DNA of 64,000 nucleotides, taken from positions 992,001 through 1,056,000 of the forward strand of contig NZ_WXUB01000001.1 of NCBI RefSeq assembly GCF_011799805.1, read 5' to 3'. Made by a program: the position numbers and the translations under genes. Source of the DNA: Maribellus sediminis (lineage in GTDB: Bacteria; Bacteroidota; Bacteroidia; Bacteroidales; Prolixibacteraceae). Positions 1-16,456 of this stretch are shown here, piece after piece (positions within the stretch are counted from its first letter, which is position 1; each line of letters starts with the position of its first letter). The notes under the pieces were generated by a model. The model was given only the letters and a program-made list of their open reading frames with translations, made no database searches and was not told the origin of the DNA.

Positions 1-1018
1 TGGTGATTTCTCCCATCCAGTCGGCTTCATAAAGCAATTTAGCCGAAGGATTCACCATGCCGGTTACGGGATCAATCAGTTCGGCAATCGGCATATTATA
101 CGGATTGTACATTTCGTTGGTCCCGAAAATTCCGGAATTCCCTGTCATTGCTGCAATGGCTGCTTCACCAGCCAGATCGGGATGAACACCGCTTCTGTAA
201 ATCAGATCATTCTTATAGCCCTGGAAAGAGGCTTCAATAAACTCAGCCGTGTTCAGCGTATTATAGGGTTTGATGGCCCGGCTCGCCACACCGTAAGTGG
301 CTTTTAATTCAACCGAAAGTCTGTCGGCTTTCCCTTTCTTTGTAGTTATCACCACAACACCATTGGCCCCGCGTGAACCATAGAGTGCACCTGCAGACGC
401 ATCTTTCAAAATCGTCATCGACTCGATGTCGCCCGGGTTGATGGCATTCAGGTTACCGTCGTACGGCACACCGTCTACTACGTAAAGCGGATTATTGCTC
501 GAATTGATCGAACCAAATCCACGGATCACGATACTCGCTCCATCGCCCGGTTGGCCCGAACCTGATGTAGTTTGTACACCGGCAACCTGGCCTTCGAGTG
601 CCTTGGAAATGTTGGCCACCGGCCTTTTTTCCAGCACATCGTTGCTGATTACTTCGGCAGAACCCGTAAACGATTCTTTTTTGGCTGTACCATAAGCAAC
701 AACCATAACCTCGTCAACACCAATCAGTTCGTTTTCCAGCTCAATGTTGTAAGTGGATTGATCGGTGATTGGGACTTCAACGGTTTTCATTCCTACAAAA
801 GAGAAAACCAGGGTTTCGTTCTCAGGAACGGTAAGCATGAACACACCGTCGATGTTGGTAGTAGTACCATTGGTAGTACCCTTTACCACTACCGATACGC
901 CGGGTATCGGGGTGCCATCTTCGGCAGAACTTACTTTCCCTGTAATTTGCTTTGTTTGGGCGAAAATGGTGAATACACCCATGAACAAAGCTACAATGAG
1001 TAATAGTAGTTTTTTCAT
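1..1018 (-). CDS. SusC/RagA-type TonB-linked outer membrane receptor (5' part)
   Basis: About 339 codons of a SusC-like outer membrane transporter; the rest lies beyond the left edge. SusC proteins import glycans or peptides across the outer membrane using TonB energy, usually with a SusD lipoprotein. Residues 1-21 form a signal peptide ending in IFAQ. A carboxypeptidase-regulatory beta-sandwich follows (about 22-105), then the start of the plug. The plug shows the NPLYVVDGVPYDG-type segment and the GANGVVVITTKKGK segment typical of this family. The ATG complement at 1016-1018 is the natural start because the signal peptide begins there. The substrate cannot be told from this part, and the SusD partner would be off the window. 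The gene has a long leader with an attenuator-like hairpin, listed separately. Confidence 0.93.
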   Translation of the reverse strand, partial: MKKLLLLIVALFMGVFTIFAQTKQITGKVSSAEDGTPIPGVSVVVKGTTNGTTTNIDGVFMLTVPENETLVFSFVGMKTVEVPITDQSTYNIELENELIGVDEVMVVAYGTAKKESFTGSAEVISNDVLEKRPVANISKALEGQVAGVQTTSGSGQPGDGASIVIRGFGSINSSNNPLYVVDGVPYDGNLNAINPGDIESMTILKDASAGALYGSRGANGVVVITTKKGKADRLSVELKATYGVASRAIKPYNTLNTAEFIEASFQGYKNDLIYRSGVHPDLAGEAAIAAMTGNSGIFGTNEMYNPYNMPIAELIDPVTGMVNPSAKLLYEADWMGEIT

Positions 1019-7175: not shown

Positions 7176-8585
7176 CTAGTTGATTTCTTTGGCCATTTCA
7201 ATGGCCTTTTTCAAGGCTGCCAGTTTGTTATTCACTTCCTGCAGTTCGCTTTCTTCTTTCGAATCGGCAACAATTCCGGCACCCGCCTGGTAAAACAATT
7301 TGCTATTCTTGCTTAAAAAGCTGCGAATCATGATCGCGTGGTTTACGGTTCTGTCGAAGCCAAGATAACCAATACATCCGCCATAATAACCACGATTCTG
7401 ATTTTCGTATTTATCGATCAGTTCCATGGCTTTATACTTTGGTGCACCGGAAAGGGTTCCGGCCGGGAATGTTTCGCCCAAAACTTTAATCAGGTTGGTG
7501 TCGTCGGTGATCCTTCCTGATACCTGCGAAACCAGGTGAATAACATGCGAGAAGAACTGTACTTCGCGGTACGTTTCCACCACCACATTATCGGCATTCC
7601 GGCTCAAATCGTTGCGCGCGAGATCAACCAGCATTACATGTTCGGCATTTTCTTTGGGATCCTTGCTCAATTGCTCTGCCAGTTCACGGTCCTGATCATC
7701 GTTGCCGGTACGTTTAAAAGTACCGGCAATGGGATGAATATAAGCTTTGTTTTCTTTTATGCGGATCTCCGCTTCGGGGCTCGAGCCAAAAATACGGTAA
7801 GTGCCATAGTCGAAATAAAACAAATAAGGCGATGGATTAATGGAACGCAGTGCACGGTACACATTAAAATCATCGCCTTTATACTCTTGCGAGAACTGTC
7901 GGCTGAGTACGATCTGGAAGACATCGCCACGGTAACAGTGCTCCTTACCTTTTGTTACCATGTATTTGTATTCTTCGTCGGTAATGTTGGATTCTTCCGC
8001 TCCTGTAGGTTCGAATTTTGCTGTGGCAAAATTCAGGTTGATGAGCAAATGGTGGATGTAATCGATCTGCGACTCTTCGCCTTCCATCAGGTTCTCCACC
8101 ATGTGGATTTGGTTTTTGTGGTGATCGATGGCAACCACATACTTGTAAAAACTGTAGAACACTTCCGGAATCTGGTATTCCTCTTTTTTCGGTGAAGAAA
8201 AGCGGATGTTTTCGAAATGCTGAATGGCATCGAAATTCAGGTAGCCAAATAAACCGTTTGCAGGTAATTCTATTTCGCTCGAATCAACATCGAAGGTTTT
8301 GAAAAAGGCATCCAGTTCATCGTGAAGTTTGCGCTCATTTGTCAAAGCATATTCTTCTTTGTCCTTTCCCGGAAATGCTTTGGTAACCTGGCCTTCCTTT
8401 ACTTTAAAGCTGGCCAGCGGACTAAATGCAATAAACGAGTAGGCATTTTCATTGCCGTGATAATCCGAACTTTCCAGAAGAATCGACTTCGGATAAAGTG
8501 TGCGCAGCCGGAGGTAAATGCTCACCGGAGTTACCGTATCGGCAAGTATTTTCCGGACTACCGGTTTAAATTTTAATTTTTCCAT
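7176..8585 (-). CDS. trpE: Anthranilate synthase component I
   Basis: TrpE makes anthranilate from chorismate, using ammonia from TrpG, and is the committed, feedback-inhibited step. The protein has 469 residues. The LLES element at residues 36-39 is the known tryptophan-binding motif of feedback-sensitive TrpE. The chorismate-binding half carries FQIVLSRQFS, PIAGTFKRTG, HVMLVDLARNDL, GAPKYKAMELID and QAGAGIVADS in order. It is the first structural gene of the operon, preceded by a leader with two attenuators. The ATG at 8583-8585 lies 26 bases after the end of the second terminator's T-run. Confidence 0.97.
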   Translation of the reverse strand: MEKLKFKPVVRKILADTVTPVSIYLRLRTLYPKSILLESSDYHGNENAYSFIAFSPLASFKVKEGQVTKAFPGKDKEEYALTNERKLHDELDAFFKTFDVDSSEIELPANGLFGYLNFDAIQHFENIRFSSPKKEEYQIPEVFYSFYKYVVAIDHHKNQIHMVENLMEGEESQIDYIHHLLINLNFATAKFEPTGAEESNITDEEYKYMVTKGKEHCYRGDVFQIVLSRQFSQEYKGDDFNVYRALRSINPSPYLFYFDYGTYRIFGSSPEAEIRIKENKAYIHPIAGTFKRTGNDDQDRELAEQLSKDPKENAEHVMLVDLARNDLSRNADNVVVETYREVQFFSHVIHLVSQVSGRITDDTNLIKVLGETFPAGTLSGAPKYKAMELIDKYENQNRGYYGGCIGYLGFDRTVNHAIMIRSFLSKNSKLFYQAGAGIVADSKEESELQEVNNKLAALKKAIEMAKEIN

Positions 8586-8611: not shown

Positions 8612-8648
8612 AAAAAAAACGGCTCATCGTGATTTCGATGAGCCGTTT
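8612..8648 (-). terminator. trp attenuator 2: intrinsic terminator before trpE
   Basis: A perfect 13-bp stem (8636-8648 with 8617-8629, 6-base loop) is followed on the minus strand by eight T (8619-8612). It lies between leader peptide 2 and trpE, so any transcript ending here makes no Trp enzymes. The 7-base segment 8677-8683, at the end of the leader peptide frame, is exactly complementary to 8626-8632 in the terminator. It would form an antiterminator if a ribosome stalls at the upstream Trp codons. A ribosome reaching the stop codon would cover 8677-8683 and let the terminator fold. Confidence 0.9.
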
Positions 8649-8676
8649 CCATTTTTAGCATATGGCGATCCTCTTT

Positions 8677-8733
8677 TCACGATTCCTGTAAAAAGTTGCA
8701 ACGCCACCACCAAATATTGTTTTGTAATTTCAT
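8677..8733 (-). CDS. trp leader peptide 2 (18 aa, three consecutive Trp)
   Basis: The short frame reads MKLQNNIWWWRCNFLQES and stops at TGA. Its three adjacent TGG codons (8712-8704) make it sensitive to charged tRNA-Trp, as in classical attenuation. The three Trp codons lie 56 bases before the attenuator stem and about 20 bases before the complementary antiterminator segment. That distance lets a stalled ribosome leave the segment free. It lies on the same strand as trpE, 92 bases upstream of it. Three Trp codons in a row among 18 would be very unlikely by chance. Confidence 0.88.
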   Translation of the reverse strand: MKLQNNIWWWRCNFLQES

Positions 8734-8748
8734 TCTGCTTTTTTTCAT

Positions 8749-8776
8749 AAAAAAACCCGCTCTTAACAGGAGCAGG
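8749..8776 (-). terminator. trp attenuator 1: intrinsic terminator after leader peptide 1
   Basis: The stem CCTGCTC/GAGCGGG (8776-8770 with 8762-8756, loop of 7, one G-U pair) is followed on the minus strand by seven T. It lies between the two leader peptides. A candidate antiterminator pairs 8828-8822 with 8767-8773 (7 bp, two G-U pairs). A separate 9-bp helix (8856-8864 with 8808-8816) joins the first Trp codon of leader 1 to a downstream segment, like the 1:2 pairing of classical leaders. Confidence 0.78.
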
Positions 8777-8830
8777 CCTTCGGTTTTTAATATCTTTAAA
8801 AAATACCAATATGGCTCTTTAACTCCTAAC

Positions 8831-8881
8831 TTACGCAAGAAGACCCCACCACGGAAGCCATATTGTATTTATTTTTTTCAT
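8831..8881 (-). CDS. trp leader peptide 1 (16 aa, three Trp)
   Basis: The frame reads MKKINTIWLPWWGLLA and stops at TAA, with Trp at positions 8, 11 and 12. The start lies about 40 bases after the predicted transcription start and the first terminator follows. It has the same logic as leader peptide 2 but an unrelated sequence apart from the Trp run, so it does not look like a recent simple duplication. Confidence 0.85.
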   Translation of the reverse strand: MKKINTIWLPWWGLLA

Positions 8882-8928
8882 TTCTGTACTAAATTTCCTC
8901 TGCAAGAAAAACCATTTTTTTGTAAAAT

Positions 8929-8957
8929 CAAAATATTCGCAGCTTTTTGCTTTCAAA
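8929..8957 (-). promoter_or_regulatory. Predicted trp operon promoter
   Basis: On the minus strand, TTTG (8957-8954), an 18-base spacer and TATTTTG (8935-8929) match the Bacteroidota consensus TTTG-N19-TAnnTTTG closely. It lies between the sprA stop and leader peptide 1. No clear terminator is seen for sprA, so sprA read-through could also enter the trp leader, where the attenuators would stop it. Confidence 0.6.
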
Positions 8958-8986: not shown

Positions 8987-11900
8987 CTAATTCGAAAGGG
9001 TGAAACGGAAGCTGACCCCGAAATTCGCATTTGTTGTACGGTACGAAGTTGAAATGAACGGATTGTTTAAAATCCGGTCGTAGAATACCCGCATTTCAAA
9101 TTTGTCGCTTAGGCGGTAATCTGCATAGGTTTTAATCGTAAAGTTACCTTGTCCAGCTGTGATTTGCGATACATCATCCAAGGGGCGCAACATGGTTTTG
9201 CTTTTCCGGTACGAAATATCGGCACGGATATTTAAATCATTGGAGTAGGCTTGTTGCGAGTTTTTGGTTTTAATGATCAGGTCCATATGCGTAAAGCGGT
9301 AGCCCATACCAAAGATGAATTCGCTGGTAAGAACCTCGGTAATCTGGTTGTTGGCAAACGACAGGTTGAGGTTACGTGCCCGCTTAATCTCGGCTCTTGT
9401 AGTCAGGTCGCTGTGCCACATGATATCCATGTTGATAAGTGGATTGAAGGCCTCAACAATACTCACAGAGTTAAAATCGTAGGGAGTTTTAAAGTTGTAA
9501 GCCAGGTCTACCAGTTCATCCATGTAATCAGAAAATTCACTTCCATCCAGATAATCCAGATTGGTAACATACGAACCAATGTTATAGGTTGAACGGTAGG
9601 TATGCTGGAAATTCAGCGAACGCATCACTTTATTCAGCCCCGGTATACGCGAAACCATTCCTTCGTAACGGATGCTCCAGTTTGGCCGGATGAATTTCGC
9701 TGAAGGGAAAAGGTCGAGCGAAACCTTATTCGGATCTTTATCCTGATATGCAGCAAGGAAGGCCGGTACCAGTACTTCTACCGAGTTTGGACCATAGCCC
9801 TGAGGATATCCCGGGTAATTTTGATGCTGTACGTTTGGATCGTAATTTCCGCCGGACGCACGTTGAGCTGCCAAACGGTGTGCAATAATCTGACGGTATT
9901 CTTTTAAATTTTCAAAAGCTTCAGAACTAACTACTTCTTCTCTTCCAATTGAGAAGAAAGCTGTTTTCCATGATAATGTGGAAATGCTAAAATTACCCGA
10001 CTCAGTAGGACTGTTTGCTTTAAAAGCGCCGGTTCCGTCGTAATCGTAGAATTCGCTTATGTTTTTAGAGAAATTTCTTTCTCCCGTGATATCAATACGT
10101 AGGTCGGGGAGTGGTTCCCACAATACCCGCAGGTTCAAGCGTTCTGTATTTCGGAACATGAACGGTTGATTTAATGTTGAGTCGATGGTTAACCAACCAT
10201 TGTCAGCGGCTTTACGGGCAAAATCGCGATCCTGCCACCCAAACATAAATGGTAAGCCCGGAGCAAAATTTGACTGTACATTTGGTAGCGACCAATCAGG
10301 ATCGCCTGAATAATTACCTGCACCAAATAACGATGGTTCCGGGAGATAACCCGGCAATACCGTACTTCCGTTTTTGGAATACATTATCGATGCTGTGCGC
10401 ACACCAATCACCATTCGGGTGGTGAGGTCGAGTACATCCTTCAGGAAGGGTTGATCTCCCCGTTTACCGCTAACTGTCAACATCGCCTGGTTGGCGTCTT
10501 CGTTTGGCGTAAATTCAATGGTGTTTGCGTCAACAATCGTCAGTTTTCCCGGAATTGCTTTTCCTTCCACTCCGGTTACCAGCACCTTAACTTTTTTGGT
10601 ATTTAGCTTATGCTGTACTTTTTGAGGAGCACCGGCTATAAATTTCAAATTTGTACTAAAGGTTTCTTCCGATTTTCGTTCCAAGGGTTGATTATCCTGT
10701 TGGTTGCTTCTACTTGAATTCCTGTTCAGGCTTCCACGTCCGCGTCCTGTTCTCCGGAATTTTTGGTTCACCTCACGGAAATACGGAACCTGGTTGAATA
10801 AGGTCTGAAAATTGGCATTTCCGGTTAACGACATGTTACGCGAGTTGCTGATCACGTTACCGATATTTATGTCTTCTTCGGTCAGTGGCCCGGCCACCCA
10901 ATCGTAAGTTCCTGAATACCGAACGTTGGCACTCATAAAACTCAGCGCTTTGATAGACCGAAGAGGTACCTGGTAATTCAGGTTAAAAGTGTGACCGTAA
11001 ATGGTTGGCCTCCCCAGGTGCATCAGATTGGTCAATATCGAATCGCGTTTCCATTCGTAATCATCGTCTCGTCGGTTAATCCGGCCTTCGGGTTCGTCGA
11101 TTCGTGAAGTGGCACGCGACGAGAAGTCGAATTTAAGCGAACGGGTCATGTCGTAACGAATATCGAGGTAACGGTTCCACAGGAAATCTTTTTCAAAATT
11201 GGTCGGCAATATCAGGTTCGGATTGGTAATGTTACGCGTCTGTACTTCGTGGTACCTTCTGAACAAATCGGTTCGATACGAAATCTGTGTTGGCAGCGGA
11301 TAAAAGTTAAAATCACCGATTAGTTTTAACGGGCCTTTCTGTAACACAGAAACTTTTTTGAAAGGCTCAATCAGTTTTGAACGGCTGCTGTAATTGTAAG
11401 AGAACATTGCACGATGCGTTTTATCCACATTGTATTCAGTAGTCACATTTCGTTTCGAAATCTCGTTGTAGGCGTAGGTCACCGCGAAATTTTGAGGATC
11501 CCACAAATGCGTTTTTTCTTTCTGACGCTGAGGTTCAACTTTCACGTTGGTAAAGTTGATGCTCTTGCGCTCAACCACATCCTGGGTTATATTTTTTAAT
11601 GAATCTTTTTCATGTTTGGTCTCCAGGTGGGCCAGCGATTTGTCCATTTCGATATCCGGCTCAAGCGGATTGTATTTTGGTTTTACCGTACTTTTCGAAT
11701 AACCATAGTACATTGGAATGCGAACGCCGGCTTTTTCGGGGAAAAAGCGTCCCCAGTCGATTGATGTTGAAACATCCATTTCGTCGAGGTCTTCCAGTTG
11801 GCGGCTGTTTATGTTTTGATCGATGCTTCCAAAACCCGAAGTGCGTTTTCGTCCGGCCACAGTAATGCTACCCAAATCGGCAAGTCGTGCTGAAACACGT

Positions 11901-14900
11901 CCGTTTGCGGCCCAGCCACCTTCTTCATCAAAATCGGTAAGGCGTAATTCGTTGGCCCACACTTCCACCGATTTCGGACCGGTATTTACCTGTCCGCGGC
12001 GGTTGCGAACACCCATCATAAATACCTCAACGTTGCCGAGGTTCGGACTACCCTTAATTTTCACCCGGTTCTTTCCACTGTTCCGGTCAGGGTCCGATTT
12101 TTCATAAATATCGTTAATCCGTATTGTTGAGCCGCCTTCGCGGATGGCGTCATTTCTATCGAGTTTCAGGTTGGTAAACAGGTCGAGCGGAAGATCAATC
12201 AGGTTTTCTTCCGGCCAGACGATCATTCGGTCTGATTCACTGTCGTTGATATAATTACCTTCAGGTGTAAGTTTTAACGGAATTTCGTATTCGTAATAGT
12301 TATTGTTGTAATCCGATCCCATCCTGATAAAGAATGACAATTCATCATCTCTCAGGGGTGAGCCTTCAATCTCTTCGGCATGAACAAACATTTTCAGTTT
12401 TTTGTACCTGCGGAAGTCCATGTACAACGACTTGTATGTTGCTTTGGCATCTCCCTGTTCCAGGTCAGTCGCTTTTAATACGATAGACTGTTCGTTCAAC
12501 TGGCGTAACTGTGGATTGGCGGGGTCAATAACCCTTGATATTCCGGGAGGAAGGATGTAGTTCACCGGCTCGCGGCTACCGTTTTCTTCGATACTTACGG
12601 CTGATATCTCGAAATTAGCATTCGCTGAAGGAGCCGAAATGTCGTCGGAAAGATCGCCTGAGTAACGGCGCCAGTCGGCTCGAACAAGATCAAGTGTTGC
12701 AAAACGCATAACTGTTGAGTCCTGGAAACCGCGCATGAACATCCTCATAAAACGGATCGATTTGAAATCGCTGATGTTACCGATCACCTGATCAGGATTT
12801 GTAACCGGTATTTTAAACTGATACCAGTTCACTTCTCCAACGGTTCCGTTTTTAAGTTCAACCTTACTGTGTTTAATATCGGTAATGTAGTTTTGCCCCA
12901 ACACCATGTCCTCGCGACGAACACTAATATGATACTGGAAATAACGTTCGTATTCGTTTAGGGTGTTGTCGCCGTTAATGTCCTCAATATCCGGAATGGT
13001 AGTAGCCGAAGTAGGGTAGCTTTCCGGCGACATTTCTGCTGTTGGTGAGTTGCCTTCGGGACCGTTGTATTTTTTGTAACGTTGCAGGATTCCTACCTGA
13101 TCCCGGTCGTAGTCAGAGCCCCGGTAATAATGGAAGTTATCTGTTGAAGGGTCATTCAGTGCATTCTGATACGCATCGTCGTTCACTCTCAAACGCAGTT
13201 CTTCGAGGTATTGCTCAAAAAGCGATTTCTCGTCGTTATCATTTAATCCGTCGAAACCAATGTCCTGGTATTGTCTCGAAGTCAGGTTGTTATCAAATGC
13301 ATTTACCAGCGACTGCTGTGTTGATACACGTCCCCAGATGGTTGTATCAACATTGGTGACTTCCGCAGTTGTCGGCAATCCGTTTTCAAATGCTTTTCGC
13401 GAATCTTTTAATATATCTTCCGAGATTTCTCCAAGGTTAAAATACAGGTCACCACCTTCATGGGTTTGAAGTGTATCGTTCACAAAAGGGTCCATCACCC
13501 AGAATTCGATGTATTCGATGTTGGCGTTTTCAAAATCGCTGGTTTGAATCTCGCGCATGATACCGCCCCATCGGGTTTCTGGTGCTCTCAGTTTTCCATC
13601 CGACTCAACACCGGCAGAAAAGTTGCTGTTTCCCGCATCGTAGTTATACGGTCCACGTTCCTCAGGGTAAAAGGCGAGGTCGAAGGTTTGAATGTTGGTT
13701 GGTTCACCGGTTGTGAACTCTTTTTCAGGGAAAAGTTCCTGTTCGAATACCTCACGTACCAGGTGGTTCGACTGCATGCTACGGTCGTTTTTAATGTGAT
13801 CGGGTGTCAGCGAGTTGTTCCTCAAAAATAAAGGATCGATATTGTAAAATGCCAGTTTTGCACGGTTGATACCGTATTCCAGCGTATTGGTCAGGTTGGC
13901 TTCAGGGAACAGGTCGCTCTGGTATTGCGGCGTACTGGCCAGCATCCACGACTGGCGGGCTCGCATGTCGATGGCTGTTTTTGTGGCTTCAAAGTCATCG
14001 ATATATGCCGAGCCATCAATTGCTTTTGCACTTCCCGGTACCAGTTTGGCATATTCTCCTTCAATATTAATCGATGAAGTAGCGTTGGTCGAATAGAAGG
14101 GCAGCGCATCGAGTGCTTTGGTAATTAACATGCTTTCGGTGTTGTAGCGTGCATCGAGCCCGTACATCAGGTTCGAAATGGGATCCTGACCATAATCTAC
14201 TTTCTCTGTAAGCGGACGCTCGTGCATGTACAGCATGGTGGCGCCAACGTTAAAATTATCGGAGAAGGCATAGTTCGCGTAAGTTCCCATCAGGGTTTTG
14301 CGCTGCATGGTAAACAGGTCTTCAGTTTCTGTTGAAACCTGGATCGGAGTACCGGCCTCCAAAAGTGCCTGGTTAATGATCTTAACTCTACCAAGGGTAT
14401 AGTCTACGGTGTAGTCAACGTTTTCAACAAGCACCTGCCCCCCGGCAGTAACTTTAACCGATCCCTGTGCAAGGTTCAGTCCGCCAAGCATGATCTCCGA
14501 ACTCGACGAGCCCTTGTAGCTACCAATAAGTTTGAACTTGTTATGCTCGGCATCCTGTTCGGCCCTAACCTGAGTGGAATCGTAGAGCGACTGGTAAACA
14601 TATTTGTCGACCAGGGCCGGATCGATAATTGAATCGGCCAGATGGCTACCAAACGGTTCAACTACCGGGAATATGATCCGCCCGCTGCTTGGATTCACCG
14701 TGATCCCCGGAACGTAGTCAAAGATTCCGTCTTTTGTTGGGTCGAGCTGCTTGTTGAGCATGTCGAGACGCATCACTTCCAAAAGGATGTGTCCTTCAAT
14801 TCTACTTTCCGGAAGGTAATTGATGTAGGTACCGGTAGAGTCGTTCTGGTACACAATGTTTAACTCAAAATCTTCGCTGGTCAACTGATAAGCATTCAGG

Positions 14901-16456
14901 TTGTAAATGTTTTTCATCATCAGTTTCCAGGTAGGTTTTCCCGGTGAAAGGTTTGTTCCTTTTAATAACTTCAGGAATAAAGTCTGAGGTGCATCAATCC
15001 CACCAGTCGAGAATTCACCAACCTGAAAAGTTTGACCGTTTACGGTGAAGTTGTAAGCAACAGCAAGAACTTCATCCGTGTTTAGCGCTGAATTCAGAGA
15101 GATGTAACCAAGCGTGGTGTTCACATTATATTCCGACGGACTTAGTTTACGGGCACTTTCAATCTTTTCAAAATCGGTACCTCCAACGAAATCCTGTCCG
15201 AATTGGGCCATCACACCGGTAATATTTTCAACCTGACGAACATCGGAATACGTAGTGTTCATTTCGCTGTACAAACCGTTGGCAGCATTGTTCGGATAAA
15301 TATTCTGTGGATAAGGAAGCCCCGGTGTGGACTGAAACTGCGGCACCTGATTATAAATATTAGGATCGTGTTCTGCAAGGTCCTGGAAAGCCAGAATGTT
15401 GCGCGACTCGGTAAAATCGTTGGACTTATTGGTTATCCAAACTTCAATTTTATTAATAGTGACCGGCGAACGCGGAACGGCGGTACTTTTTAACCATTCA
15501 TCGTAATGGTCGCGGAAATACTGTGCCAGGAAAAAGTGTCGGTTCGCATCATAGTTCGAAGCCGAAATATCGAAGGTTGCCACCTGTGCTCCACCTTCGG
15601 TTTCAACGGTTTTCGATTCACCTTTACTTTGCGAGAAAATAGTGGTAACGTTCAGTTTCCCGAACTGCATCTCTGTTTTTACCCCAAAAAGGTTGGATGC
15701 ACCCGAAATCAATGAACCATTCAGCGGAAGCGAAACATTACCGGCCTCAATACGTTTGATGATCTCATCTTCGTCGCCGGTATATTCCAGGTTCATTTTA
15801 TTTTCGTAATCGAAGGTGGCCTCGGTGTTGTAATTCACCCGCATGTTCATTTTTGTTCCGATCTGGCCGGTAACATTCATCTGAATCTTTTCGTCGAAAT
15901 CGAATGTTGGCACCTTACGCAGGCGCTCCGGTATCGACGGGTTGTCGGTTTTATTCACCTGGTAGCCGAAACTTACTTCAACATAACCCTGTGGCTGAAT
16001 ATTGATGGTGTTACCGCCAAAAATGCGGTTAAAGGCTTCACTTCCGATTGTCAGTTGAGGCAGTAAGCCTCCGCGGCGGTCCTGGTCTTCGAGTTGTGTA
16101 CGGCTTTTCCAGTATTCCTGGATCGACCGGTCGAAGTCGTAATCGATATAATCGTCGAGCGACATACTTTGTGGCAGACGATAATTCAGGTTGCCAATTT
16201 TTTCGTAGAACACATATTGTCCGGTTATCGGATCGTACTCTACTTCGTATTTAATGTTACTGGGTTTGTTCAGAAACAGCTTCATGGAGTCCTGTTCAGG
16301 ATATCCAAATGCAGGTTGATCCTTAAAAGGATAGGGTAGGTTGCCGGTTGTGTCCATTACAGGAGCATCCTGTGCCAGCCCCAATTGGGGAATCGCGAGG
16401 GACATTACGGCGAATAAAATGAAGTATATTTTTACTAACCTTCGGTTCAGTTTCAT
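8987..16456 (-). CDS. sprA: Type IX secretion outer membrane translocon SprA (Sov)
   Basis: SprA is the giant outer membrane beta-barrel that forms the exit channel of the type IX secretion system. In gliding species it is also needed for motility. The 2489-residue length fits the family (about 2400-2500). A signal peptide covers residues 1-28 (ending LGLAQ). The rest is rich in alternating beta-strand patterns with N/D/Y-rich turns. It ends in an outer membrane C-terminal strand (GVSFRFTLSN). The neighbourhood sprA-ruvA is recurrent in Bacteroidota. The start is the ATG at 16456, at the head of the signal peptide. A sorting-tail protein that should use this channel is encoded at 58732. Confidence 0.95.
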   Translation of the reverse strand: MKLNRRLVKIYFILFAVMSLAIPQLGLAQDAPVMDTTGNLPYPFKDQPAFGYPEQDSMKLFLNKPSNIKYEVEYDPITGQYVFYEKIGNLNYRLPQSMSLDDYIDYDFDRSIQEYWKSRTQLEDQDRRGGLLPQLTIGSEAFNRIFGGNTINIQPQGYVEVSFGYQVNKTDNPSIPERLRKVPTFDFDEKIQMNVTGQIGTKMNMRVNYNTEATFDYENKMNLEYTGDEDEIIKRIEAGNVSLPLNGSLISGASNLFGVKTEMQFGKLNVTTIFSQSKGESKTVETEGGAQVATFDISASNYDANRHFFLAQYFRDHYDEWLKSTAVPRSPVTINKIEVWITNKSNDFTESRNILAFQDLAEHDPNIYNQVPQFQSTPGLPYPQNIYPNNAANGLYSEMNTTYSDVRQVENITGVMAQFGQDFVGGTDFEKIESARKLSPSEYNVNTTLGYISLNSALNTDEVLAVAYNFTVNGQTFQVGEFSTGGIDAPQTLFLKLLKGTNLSPGKPTWKLMMKNIYNLNAYQLTSEDFELNIVYQNDSTGTYINYLPESRIEGHILLEVMRLDMLNKQLDPTKDGIFDYVPGITVNPSSGRIIFPVVEPFGSHLADSIIDPALVDKYVYQSLYDSTQVRAEQDAEHNKFKLIGSYKGSSSSEIMLGGLNLAQGSVKVTAGGQVLVENVDYTVDYTLGRVKIINQALLEAGTPIQVSTETEDLFTMQRKTLMGTYANYAFSDNFNVGATMLYMHERPLTEKVDYGQDPISNLMYGLDARYNTESMLITKALDALPFYSTNATSSINIEGEYAKLVPGSAKAIDGSAYIDDFEATKTAIDMRARQSWMLASTPQYQSDLFPEANLTNTLEYGINRAKLAFYNIDPLFLRNNSLTPDHIKNDRSMQSNHLVREVFEQELFPEKEFTTGEPTNIQTFDLAFYPEERGPYNYDAGNSNFSAGVESDGKLRAPETRWGGIMREIQTSDFENANIEYIEFWVMDPFVNDTLQTHEGGDLYFNLGEISEDILKDSRKAFENGLPTTAEVTNVDTTIWGRVSTQQSLVNAFDNNLTSRQYQDIGFDGLNDNDEKSLFEQYLEELRLRVNDDAYQNALNDPSTDNFHYYRGSDYDRDQVGILQRYKKYNGPEGNSPTAEMSPESYPTSATTIPDIEDINGDNTLNEYERYFQYHISVRREDMVLGQNYITDIKHSKVELKNGTVGEVNWYQFKIPVTNPDQVIGNISDFKSIRFMRMFMRGFQDSTVMRFATLDLVRADWRRYSGDLSDDISAPSANANFEISAVSIEENGSREPVNYILPPGISRVIDPANPQLRQLNEQSIVLKATDLEQGDAKATYKSLYMDFRRYKKLKMFVHAEEIEGSPLRDDELSFFIRMGSDYNNNYYEYEIPLKLTPEGNYINDSESDRMIVWPEENLIDLPLDLFTNLKLDRNDAIREGGSTIRINDIYEKSDPDRNSGKNRVKIKGSPNLGNVEVFMMGVRNRRGQVNTGPKSVEVWANELRLTDFDEEGGWAANGRVSARLADLGSITVAGRKRTSGFGSIDQNINSRQLEDLDEMDVSTSIDWGRFFPEKAGVRIPMYYGYSKSTVKPKYNPLEPDIEMDKSLAHLETKHEKDSLKNITQDVVERKSINFTNVKVEPQRQKEKTHLWDPQNFAVTYAYNEISKRNVTTEYNVDKTHRAMFSYNYSSRSKLIEPFKKVSVLQKGPLKLIGDFNFYPLPTQISYRTDLFRRYHEVQTRNITNPNLILPTNFEKDFLWNRYLDIRYDMTRSLKFDFSSRATSRIDEPEGRINRRDDDYEWKRDSILTNLMHLGRPTIYGHTFNLNYQVPLRSIKALSFMSANVRYSGTYDWVAGPLTEEDINIGNVISNSRNMSLTGNANFQTLFNQVPYFREVNQKFRRTGRGRGSLNRNSSRSNQQDNQPLERKSEETFSTNLKFIAGAPQKVQHKLNTKKVKVLVTGVEGKAIPGKLTIVDANTIEFTPNEDANQAMLTVSGKRGDQPFLKDVLDLTTRMVIGVRTASIMYSKNGSTVLPGYLPEPSLFGAGNYSGDPDWSLPNVQSNFAPGLPFMFGWQDRDFARKAADNGWLTIDSTLNQPFMFRNTERLNLRVLWEPLPDLRIDITGERNFSKNISEFYDYDGTGAFKANSPTESGNFSISTLSWKTAFFSIGREEVVSSEAFENLKEYRQIIAHRLAAQRASGGNYDPNVQHQNYPGYPQGYGPNSVEVLVPAFLAAYQDKDPNKVSLDLFPSAKFIRPNWSIRYEGMVSRIPGLNKVMRSLNFQHTYRSTYNIGSYVTNLDYLDGSEFSDYMDELVDLAYNFKTPYDFNSVSIVEAFNPLINMDIMWHSDLTTRAEIKRARNLNLSFANNQITEVLTSEFIFGMGYRFTHMDLIIKTKNSQQAYSNDLNIRADISYRKSKTMLRPLDDVSQITAGQGNFTIKTYADYRLSDKFEMRVFYDRILNNPFISTSYRTTNANFGVSFRFTLSN

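Follow-up and report, generated by a model that had tools for sequence, protein, structure and literature searches.

Tandem tryptophan leader units and a conserved RNA element upstream of trpE in Maribellus sediminis

The trp operon of Maribellus sediminis was analyzed within a 64,000-nucleotide (nt) stretch of contig NZ_WXUB01000001.1 (positions 992,001 to 1,056,000; here called the window). Read directly on the minus strand, the leader between sprA and the trp operon contains, in order, open reading frame 1 (ORF1), terminator T1, ORF2, terminator T2, and then trpE; both ORFs carry clustered tryptophan (Trp) codons, and ORF1 with T1 and ORF2 with T2 are referred to as units 1 and 2. Comparison with relatives indicated that the trp transcript likely carries two ribosome-mediated transcription attenuators in series, the first of which overlies a conserved RNA fold with a probable second role. 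As far as comparison goes, the tandem attenuator is real: both units are conserved, ORF1 and T1 are linked, the antiterminator strands are matched to their own terminators, and the fold is conserved beyond coding need. Judged from its aligned copies, unit 1 is more than a second leader peptide, since its nucleotides also form a fixed RNA fold, a feature overlooked in the initial annotation of this DNA. Single trp leaders are already known in Bacteroidota; the tandem form around an undescribed RNA element is what is new here.

Two leader units between sprA and trpE

The initial annotation had proposed tandem trp attenuators at this site, and direct reading of the minus strand confirmed its coordinates, residue numbers, and T counts. 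A 16-residue frame with Trp at residues 8, 11, and 12 is followed by T1 with seven T, and an 18-residue frame with WWW is followed by T2 with eight T and then by trpE (Table 1). For ORF2, the ATG at 8733 (18 residues, 8733-8677) was the start that aligned with relatives. Predicted folding energies were −14.1 kcal/mol for T1 and −22.5 kcal/mol for T2. A mechanical scan returned three terminator-like sites in total, compared with 0.6 (standard deviation [SD], 0.7) in shuffles; T1 was found on the minus strand, and the T2 hairpin was listed only as an opposite-strand site. The promoter-like boxes of the initial annotation gained no support from a scan for sigma-70-type promoters, which identified 0 compared with 1.7 in shuffles. 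Promoters of Bacteroidota differ from sigma-70 promoters, and for flavobacteria a −7 consensus of TAnnTTTG has been described (PMC9723704). A TTG/TTTTTCTTGCA pair common to close relatives in the alignment remains the candidate promoter.

Each unit combines a Trp-codon ORF with a terminator and a strand predicted to compete with it, and the candidate antiterminator pairings proposed for both units held up, the strands fitting their own terminators better than permuted ones. In unit 1, the strand GTTAGGAG lies directly 3′ of the ORF1 stop codon, doubles as the 3′ side of helix P2 of the conserved element, and has two possible partners, the 5′ side of P2 and the arm and loop of T1. For 59 distinct pairs from 77 loci, the duplex energy of this strand with its own T1 was −10.68 kcal/mol versus −8.16 kcal/mol (SD, 0.28) after permutation, with none of 10,000 permutations as low; using one sequence per genus (n = 10), the values were −11.08 and −8.93 (5 of 2,000). 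The corresponding values in unit 2 were −10.45 and −8.89 (SD, 0.36; 0 of 2,000; 37 groups), in a test that included a few wrong picks (L044, L166, L167, L169, and L210). CGTG was present near the ORF2 stop codon in 98 of 117 loci and CACG in the T2 loop in 100. Single-leader genera have different matching letters at the equivalent place, for example GGAAGTT with AACTTCC (L211, L214, L215, and L217). An incomplete unit 2 transcript, in which T2 is unfinished, folds into the antiterminator, and both antiterminator strands are positioned at stop codons, beyond a ribosome of generally accepted footprint that is still on the Trp codons.

We infer stalling, termination, a Trp signal, and a series logic from this arrangement. 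A ribosome stalled at the ORF1 Trp codons would cover the 5′ strand of helix P1 and free GTTAGGAG for pairing with the loop and 5′ arm of T1, allowing RNA polymerase to read on. A ribosome reaching the ORF1 stop codon would cover GTTAGGAG, and T1 would form; with no translation, P1 and P2 would hold the same strand, and T1 would again form. Unit 2 would repeat the scheme with its WWW codons, ATCGTGA at the stop codon, and TCACGAT in T2, and trpE would be reached only by transcripts passing both gates. The initial annotation proposed that such a series may also multiply the fold-regulation and silence read-through from sprA. The conserved fold beneath unit 1 would have a second, translation-independent role.

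T1 could alternatively be the terminator of sprA, with ORF1 a chance frame and unit 2 the sole trp attenuator. The gap from the end of sprA to ORF1 is 105 nt, and the mechanical scan found no terminator-like site on the minus strand between them. This explanation is nevertheless highly improbable, given that trpE is repeatedly preceded in the family by ORF1 with its Trp codons and by T1, and that T1 matches the strand after the ORF1 stop. A chance origin of ORF1 was rejected in view of its conservation and its link to T1, and both leaders appear to be more than chance because the same layout recurs in relatives. The initial annotation had named a lack of Trp-codon conservation in relatives among the observations that would refute its tandem proposal; the codons were conserved, and the proposal was not refuted by this test.

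Table 1. Features of the trp leader and adjoining genes in the window
Feature	Position	Strand	Details
sprA	8987-16456	-	supported by family match
Candidate promoter	8903..8931	-	TTG at 8931-8929 and TTTTTCTTG at 8911-8903; common to close relatives
ORF1, leader peptide 1 (MKKINTIWLPWWGLLA)	8831..8881	-	16 residues, Trp at 8, 11, 12; recurs in relatives
Conserved RNA element	8800..8870	-	P1 8870-8856/8816-8801; GGUGGGG in loop; P2 8842-8838/8827-8823
Antiterminator strand 1 (GTTAGGAG)	8823..8830	-	own-versus-permuted duplex energies
Terminator T1	8749..8780	-	seven T; stem 8780-8770/8762-8752, T run 8755-8749
CTCCT in T1	8772-8768	-	partner of antiterminator strand 1
ORF2, leader peptide 2 with WWW	8677..8748	-	18-residue form MKLQNNIWWWRCNFLQES from 8733; 23-residue form from 8748
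Antiterminator strand 2 (ATCGTGA)	8677..8683	-	overlaps ORF2 stop codon; partner TCACGAT at 8632-8626
Terminator T2	8612..8649	-	eight T; stem 8649-8636/8629-8616, T run 8619-8612
trpE	7176..8585	-	first gene of trpE-G-D-C-F-B-A

Within the operon, trpE, trpG, trpD, trpC, and trpF were supported by family matches, and trpB and trpA were identified from their ORFs.

A conserved RNA element in unit 1

The 71-nt element of unit 1 reads AAAUACAAUAUGGCU (P1), UCCGUGGUGGGGU, CUUCU-loop-AGGAG (P2), UUAAAG, and AGCCAUAUUGGUAUUU (P1). It is absent from Rfam 15. A covariance model, R1, was built from 37 distinct sequences (alignment A1), across which the window copy has 48 invariant positions out of 71. 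A1 was cut with a fixed pattern, by which no element locus was lost among 33 loci from the genus and 53 named loci; divergent copies were found later via the model. Across these 86 copies, in which some genomes are counted twice, the first 31 nt were constant except in 7 copies, which differ in the third base of the Leu codon that follows the first Trp; the trpE third positions of 27 of the loci had a mean identity of 45%. Four element copies were tested, and each folded better than shuffles (z, −2.8 to −3.9). P1 hardly varies and is therefore little informative, with few wobble or compensated cases (L138, L139, L142, L194, and L209), and the pair tally, taken from individually folded sequences, is not an independent test of covariation. 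The halves of P2 paired better with their own partners than with permuted ones from other genera (−6.70 versus −5.23 [SD, 0.40]; 1 of 5,000; 15 genera).

These P2 values also bear on whether the invariant letters might instead bind a repressor as a DNA operator located downstream of the promoter, with the arms forming the inverted repeat CAATATGGCT/AGCCATATTG. The arms do come close to a perfect inverted repeat and lie near the candidate promoter, but a nested stem matched to its own partner across 15 genera, variable arm spacing, and a conserved unpaired loop make an operator very improbable.

To relate the element to the leader peptide, a census took one element-bearing upstream region from each of 95 genomes, and ORF1 was scored as an in-frame ATG within 36 nt together with a stop codon inside the element. 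ORF1 and T1 were both present in 77 loci and both missing in 17; in the one other locus, L181, ORF1 was present and T1 was not called, and the similar locus L183 has T1. The ORF1 frame with ATG and stop was thus kept in 78 of the 95 loci, the remaining 17 lacking an ORF with Trp codons by this rule. The ATG preceded the first Trp codon by 21 nt in 47 loci, 24 nt in 29, and 30 nt in one, always in frame, and in L209 ATGs are found at both 3 and 21 nt. In 6 of the 17 loci without ORF1 (L148, L189, L191, L195, L199, and L227), an upstream stop lies a few codons away with no ATG, GTG, or TTG between. The Trp frame is broken in L157 and L141, both of which retain GGUGGG. L079/L228 were counted as lacking ORF1; an ATG occurs there much further upstream, at about 28 codons. 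The census left out L164 and L166-L169 (genus g26, diverged), L182, L187, and L208 (truncated upstream), L210-L226 (at most one leader found), L144 (element present but overlooked by the pattern), L026, L027, and L032 (insertion or contig end), and L229 and L230 (without an available TrpE).

On a TrpE tree of 49 rows (50 were chosen; L097 gave no TrpE row), the state without T1 required three changes, forced by well-supported branches. The groups without T1 were g27, the weakly placed L088, and a clade of Sunxiuqinia, Mangrovibacterium, and Gaoshiqia with genome G832 and the long-branched L141. The tree fits losses of T1 and a basal state without T1 alike. In eight loci of the Sunxiuqinia-Mangrovibacterium-Gaoshiqia clade, corresponding to 8 of its 10 rows without T1, the first 34 and last 17 nt of the element (51 positions) are identical despite the lack of ORF1 and T1; mean identity among the same loci was 85.6% for TrpE and 47.7% for trpE third codon positions. 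Of the other two rows, L146 differs in P2 and the base before P2, and L141 differs more widely. Selection on the element RNA therefore seems to continue without the leader peptide and terminator. As loci lacking ORF1 and T1 still retain the fold, it probably has a translation-independent role, with which the matching of P2 to its own partner also agrees. The reverse situation was found in genus g26, in which a WSWW or WFWW ORF before a terminator is kept despite changed RNA letters (L164, L166, L167, and L169), if unevenly, as L168 shows the WWW unit only. Together, the two patterns suggest that the codons of unit 1 are functional where T1 exists and that its RNA has a further function. The element, in outliving its own ORF and terminator, would represent an RNA fold separated from its leader peptide by natural evolution, and this separation lets one ask directly whether the RNA itself can also do the sensing at an amino-acid attenuator.

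Such sensing could make unit 1 mainly riboswitch-like, with the P1/P2 fold binding a ligand (tryptophan, tRNA-Trp, another metabolite, or a protein) and the Trp ORF acting as a second or secondary input; ligand binding would let P2 hold GTTAGGAG, and T1 would form. The nearly invariant stem and loop letters, the 51 positions retained without ORF1 and T1, the GGUGGG kept in broken frames, and the matched P2 halves would all suit this possibility, as would the competition of P2 with T1 for a single strand, which resembles that in riboswitch platforms. The concordance of ORF1 and T1 in 94 of the 95 loci, however, suggests that translation matters where T1 exists, and g26 keeps its Trp codons while the RNA changes. 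No output (expression platform) was identified in the 17 loci without T1; where T1 is present, it could serve as one. On balance, a mainly riboswitch-like unit 1 is possible but unlikely. We offer just as tentatively a composite reading, in which the element, hitherto undescribed, senses tryptophan status independently of translation (through free tryptophan, tRNA-Trp, or a protein) and is joined to a leader-peptide attenuator; ribosome and ligand would then both read the one RNA, upstream of a second Trp attenuator of the conventional kind. Were this so, and were the ligand free tryptophan, the element would be a natural tryptophan riboswitch.

Several observations weigh against two ribosome-mediated attenuators in series. 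When the window is folded at equilibrium, T1 and T2 persist despite removal of the region of the stalled ribosome. If the 3′ arm of T1 is left off, unit 1 folded with no ribosome already pairs GGAG with CTCC rather than holding it in P2, leaving the default state of this unit ambiguous. Because equilibrium folding gave no clean attenuator states, control would have to be kinetic. In addition, the permutation tests correct only partly for relatedness, and the element without ORF1 and T1 in 17 of 95 loci is not explained by the attenuator model alone. The tandem attenuation put forward in the initial annotation was supported by the Trp codons, the ORF1-T1 link, and the matched antiterminators, and requires amendment in that unit 1 is also a fixed RNA fold.

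Three further candidates were set aside. An arrest peptide encoded by leader 1 was rejected, as the peptide varies (WLPWWGLLT, WLWWGNTFLC, WLWWGTFLF, and WSWWQILLYR) and mainly the Trp pattern stays. Pairing of the CCGUGG loop of the element with CACGG of T2, considered by eye only, was rejected since T2 varies (CACGA or CACGG) and the loop does not. A T-box-like reading by tRNA-Trp was likewise considered by eye only and not retained.

Distribution of the unit 1 element

The genus was sampled with 37 genomes, including the source genome G000, and the element was identified in 35 of these with the covariance model (E value, ≤0.05). The two without it were G015, in which no trpE was found, and G023. 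The latter, a small genome of the genus, encodes a TrpE only 49% identical to that of the window behind a single WWW leader (L048), as if its trp operon had been replaced. The view was cut by a contig end in L027 and L032, and a stretch was inserted between units 1 and 2 in L026. Both leader ORFs were present in the other 32 genus loci with the window's type of TrpE; the filter did not call T2 in L005 and L034.

A search of the genome collection with a degenerate pattern for IWLPWWGLL, which left wobble positions and most of the 3′ half of the element free, identified 56 loci. TrpE was encoded downstream on the same strand in 48; five had the element with no TrpE on the available stretch (L066, L075, L081, L093, and L099), and three resembled unrelated coding matches (L057, L071, and L084). 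Carriers included Draconibacterium, Maribellus, Sunxiuqinia, Mariniphaga, Mangrovibacterium, Gaoshiqia, Tangfeifania, and Prolixibacteraceae metagenome-assembled genomes. R1 matched the source genome once (E value, 6e−20) and 99 of 140 family genomes (E value, ≤0.05), representing 15 of 23 genera. The weak matches of g27, g379, g382, and g387 (27 to 41 bits) also lie just upstream of trpE and, because they adjoin it, are regarded as divergent copies. At E values of ≤0.01, R1 gave four matches among 393 order genomes, which included at least five from the family; two lay in the genus, and the other two were attributed to chance. A set of 395 phylum genomes yielded two matches, G000 and one of those same chance matches; stricter filters apply with many genomes, and weak copies outside the family could be missed. 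The outside-family matches L108 and L109 (E values, 0.003 to 0.005) and second matches in G832 and G014 (L147 and L156) were not beside trp genes by ORFs or TrpE search and were taken as chance.

Genus g374 (L219-L226) showed no Trp-leader unit upstream of trpE, and in several of its loci another reading frame lies close to trpE. In L105, a nucleotidyltransferase/HepT-like gene pair (292-618 and 587-916, plus strand; Pfam PF18765/PF01909 and PF01934) is situated within the trp leader. A gene pair between units 1 and 2 was also seen by eye in L061, with HepT-like letters in L026 and L032. As it lies between the units, the L105 pair would be transcribed behind attenuator 1 only.

Known leaders and tandem arrangements elsewhere

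The Bacteroid-trp leader RNA (Rfam RF01692) is a single trp leader of Bacteroidota (Weinberg 2010, Table 1; PMC2864571). It resembles the window in its Trp codons, hairpin, and following terminator, a plan common to unit 2 and, loosely, to unit 1, but has one unit per leader, with neither a second unit nor an invariant element. The window scored 22.5 bits against RF01692 over unit 1, below the gathering score of 49, and a single-leader locus, L041, came near it with 41.7 bits. The enteric trp attenuator (RF00513) shares with the window a Trp-codon leader peptide and alternative antiterminator and terminator hairpins but is a single unit; here the window scored 17.0 bits against RF00513 (Trp_leader), for which the gathering score is 41. 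The sole gathering-level Rfam match in the window was a tRNA, with none at the leader, and a scan of 25 other loci gave no gathering-level match at any of their leaders.

Tandem attenuators have been described for Salmonella mgtCBR, where two short ORFs respond to different signals, ATP and proline (PMC3641672). As in the window, the two ORFs share one leader and each is tied to its own attenuator; the signals differ there, whereas here both peptides are Trp-rich and the operon makes Trp. The Corynebacterium ilvB-II motif illustrates that conserved RNA motifs can be leader peptides (PMC10272879) and, like the element, is a conserved motif of leader RNA that encompasses a leader peptide ahead of an amino-acid operon. 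All ilvB-II representatives are reported to keep an in-frame start and stop, whereas 17 of 95 loci here keep the RNA without the ORF, and because of these the element would not be solely a leader peptide. Leader-peptide attenuation has been inferred before amino-acid operons in Flavobacterium psychrophilum (PMC9723704), and ermB is reported to have two leader peptides in translational attenuation (PMC8274638). The term "tryptophan riboswitch" refers to engineered parts in PMC11126579 and to elements stated not to be predicted in alpha-proteobacteria in PMC2245857. Judging by titles and abstract openings, subscription literature aside, no publication on tandem trp leader peptides or the unit 1 element was found. 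The initial annotation had known of no standard description of a double unit in this phylum; single trp leaders had already been described there (RF01692).

Upstream regions were surveyed at 54 further trpE loci, comprising 53 from other families of the order and L048. One Trp-leader unit was found in 30, none in 20, and two in 4; L036 among the two-unit loci and L044 among the single ones look spurious. In L038, L252, and L265, which belong to three other families, two Trp ORFs lie upstream of trpE, each followed by a terminator, and the R1 search of order genomes gave no element match in their genomes. Two same-signal attenuators in series, kept in much of the family and found again in these three families, would be a natural case of multiplied termination control, unlike the mgtCBR case in print, which senses two different signals. 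By this comparison, the tandem form of trp leader seems to have had more than one origin, and repeated origin would favor a function for the arrangement in series.
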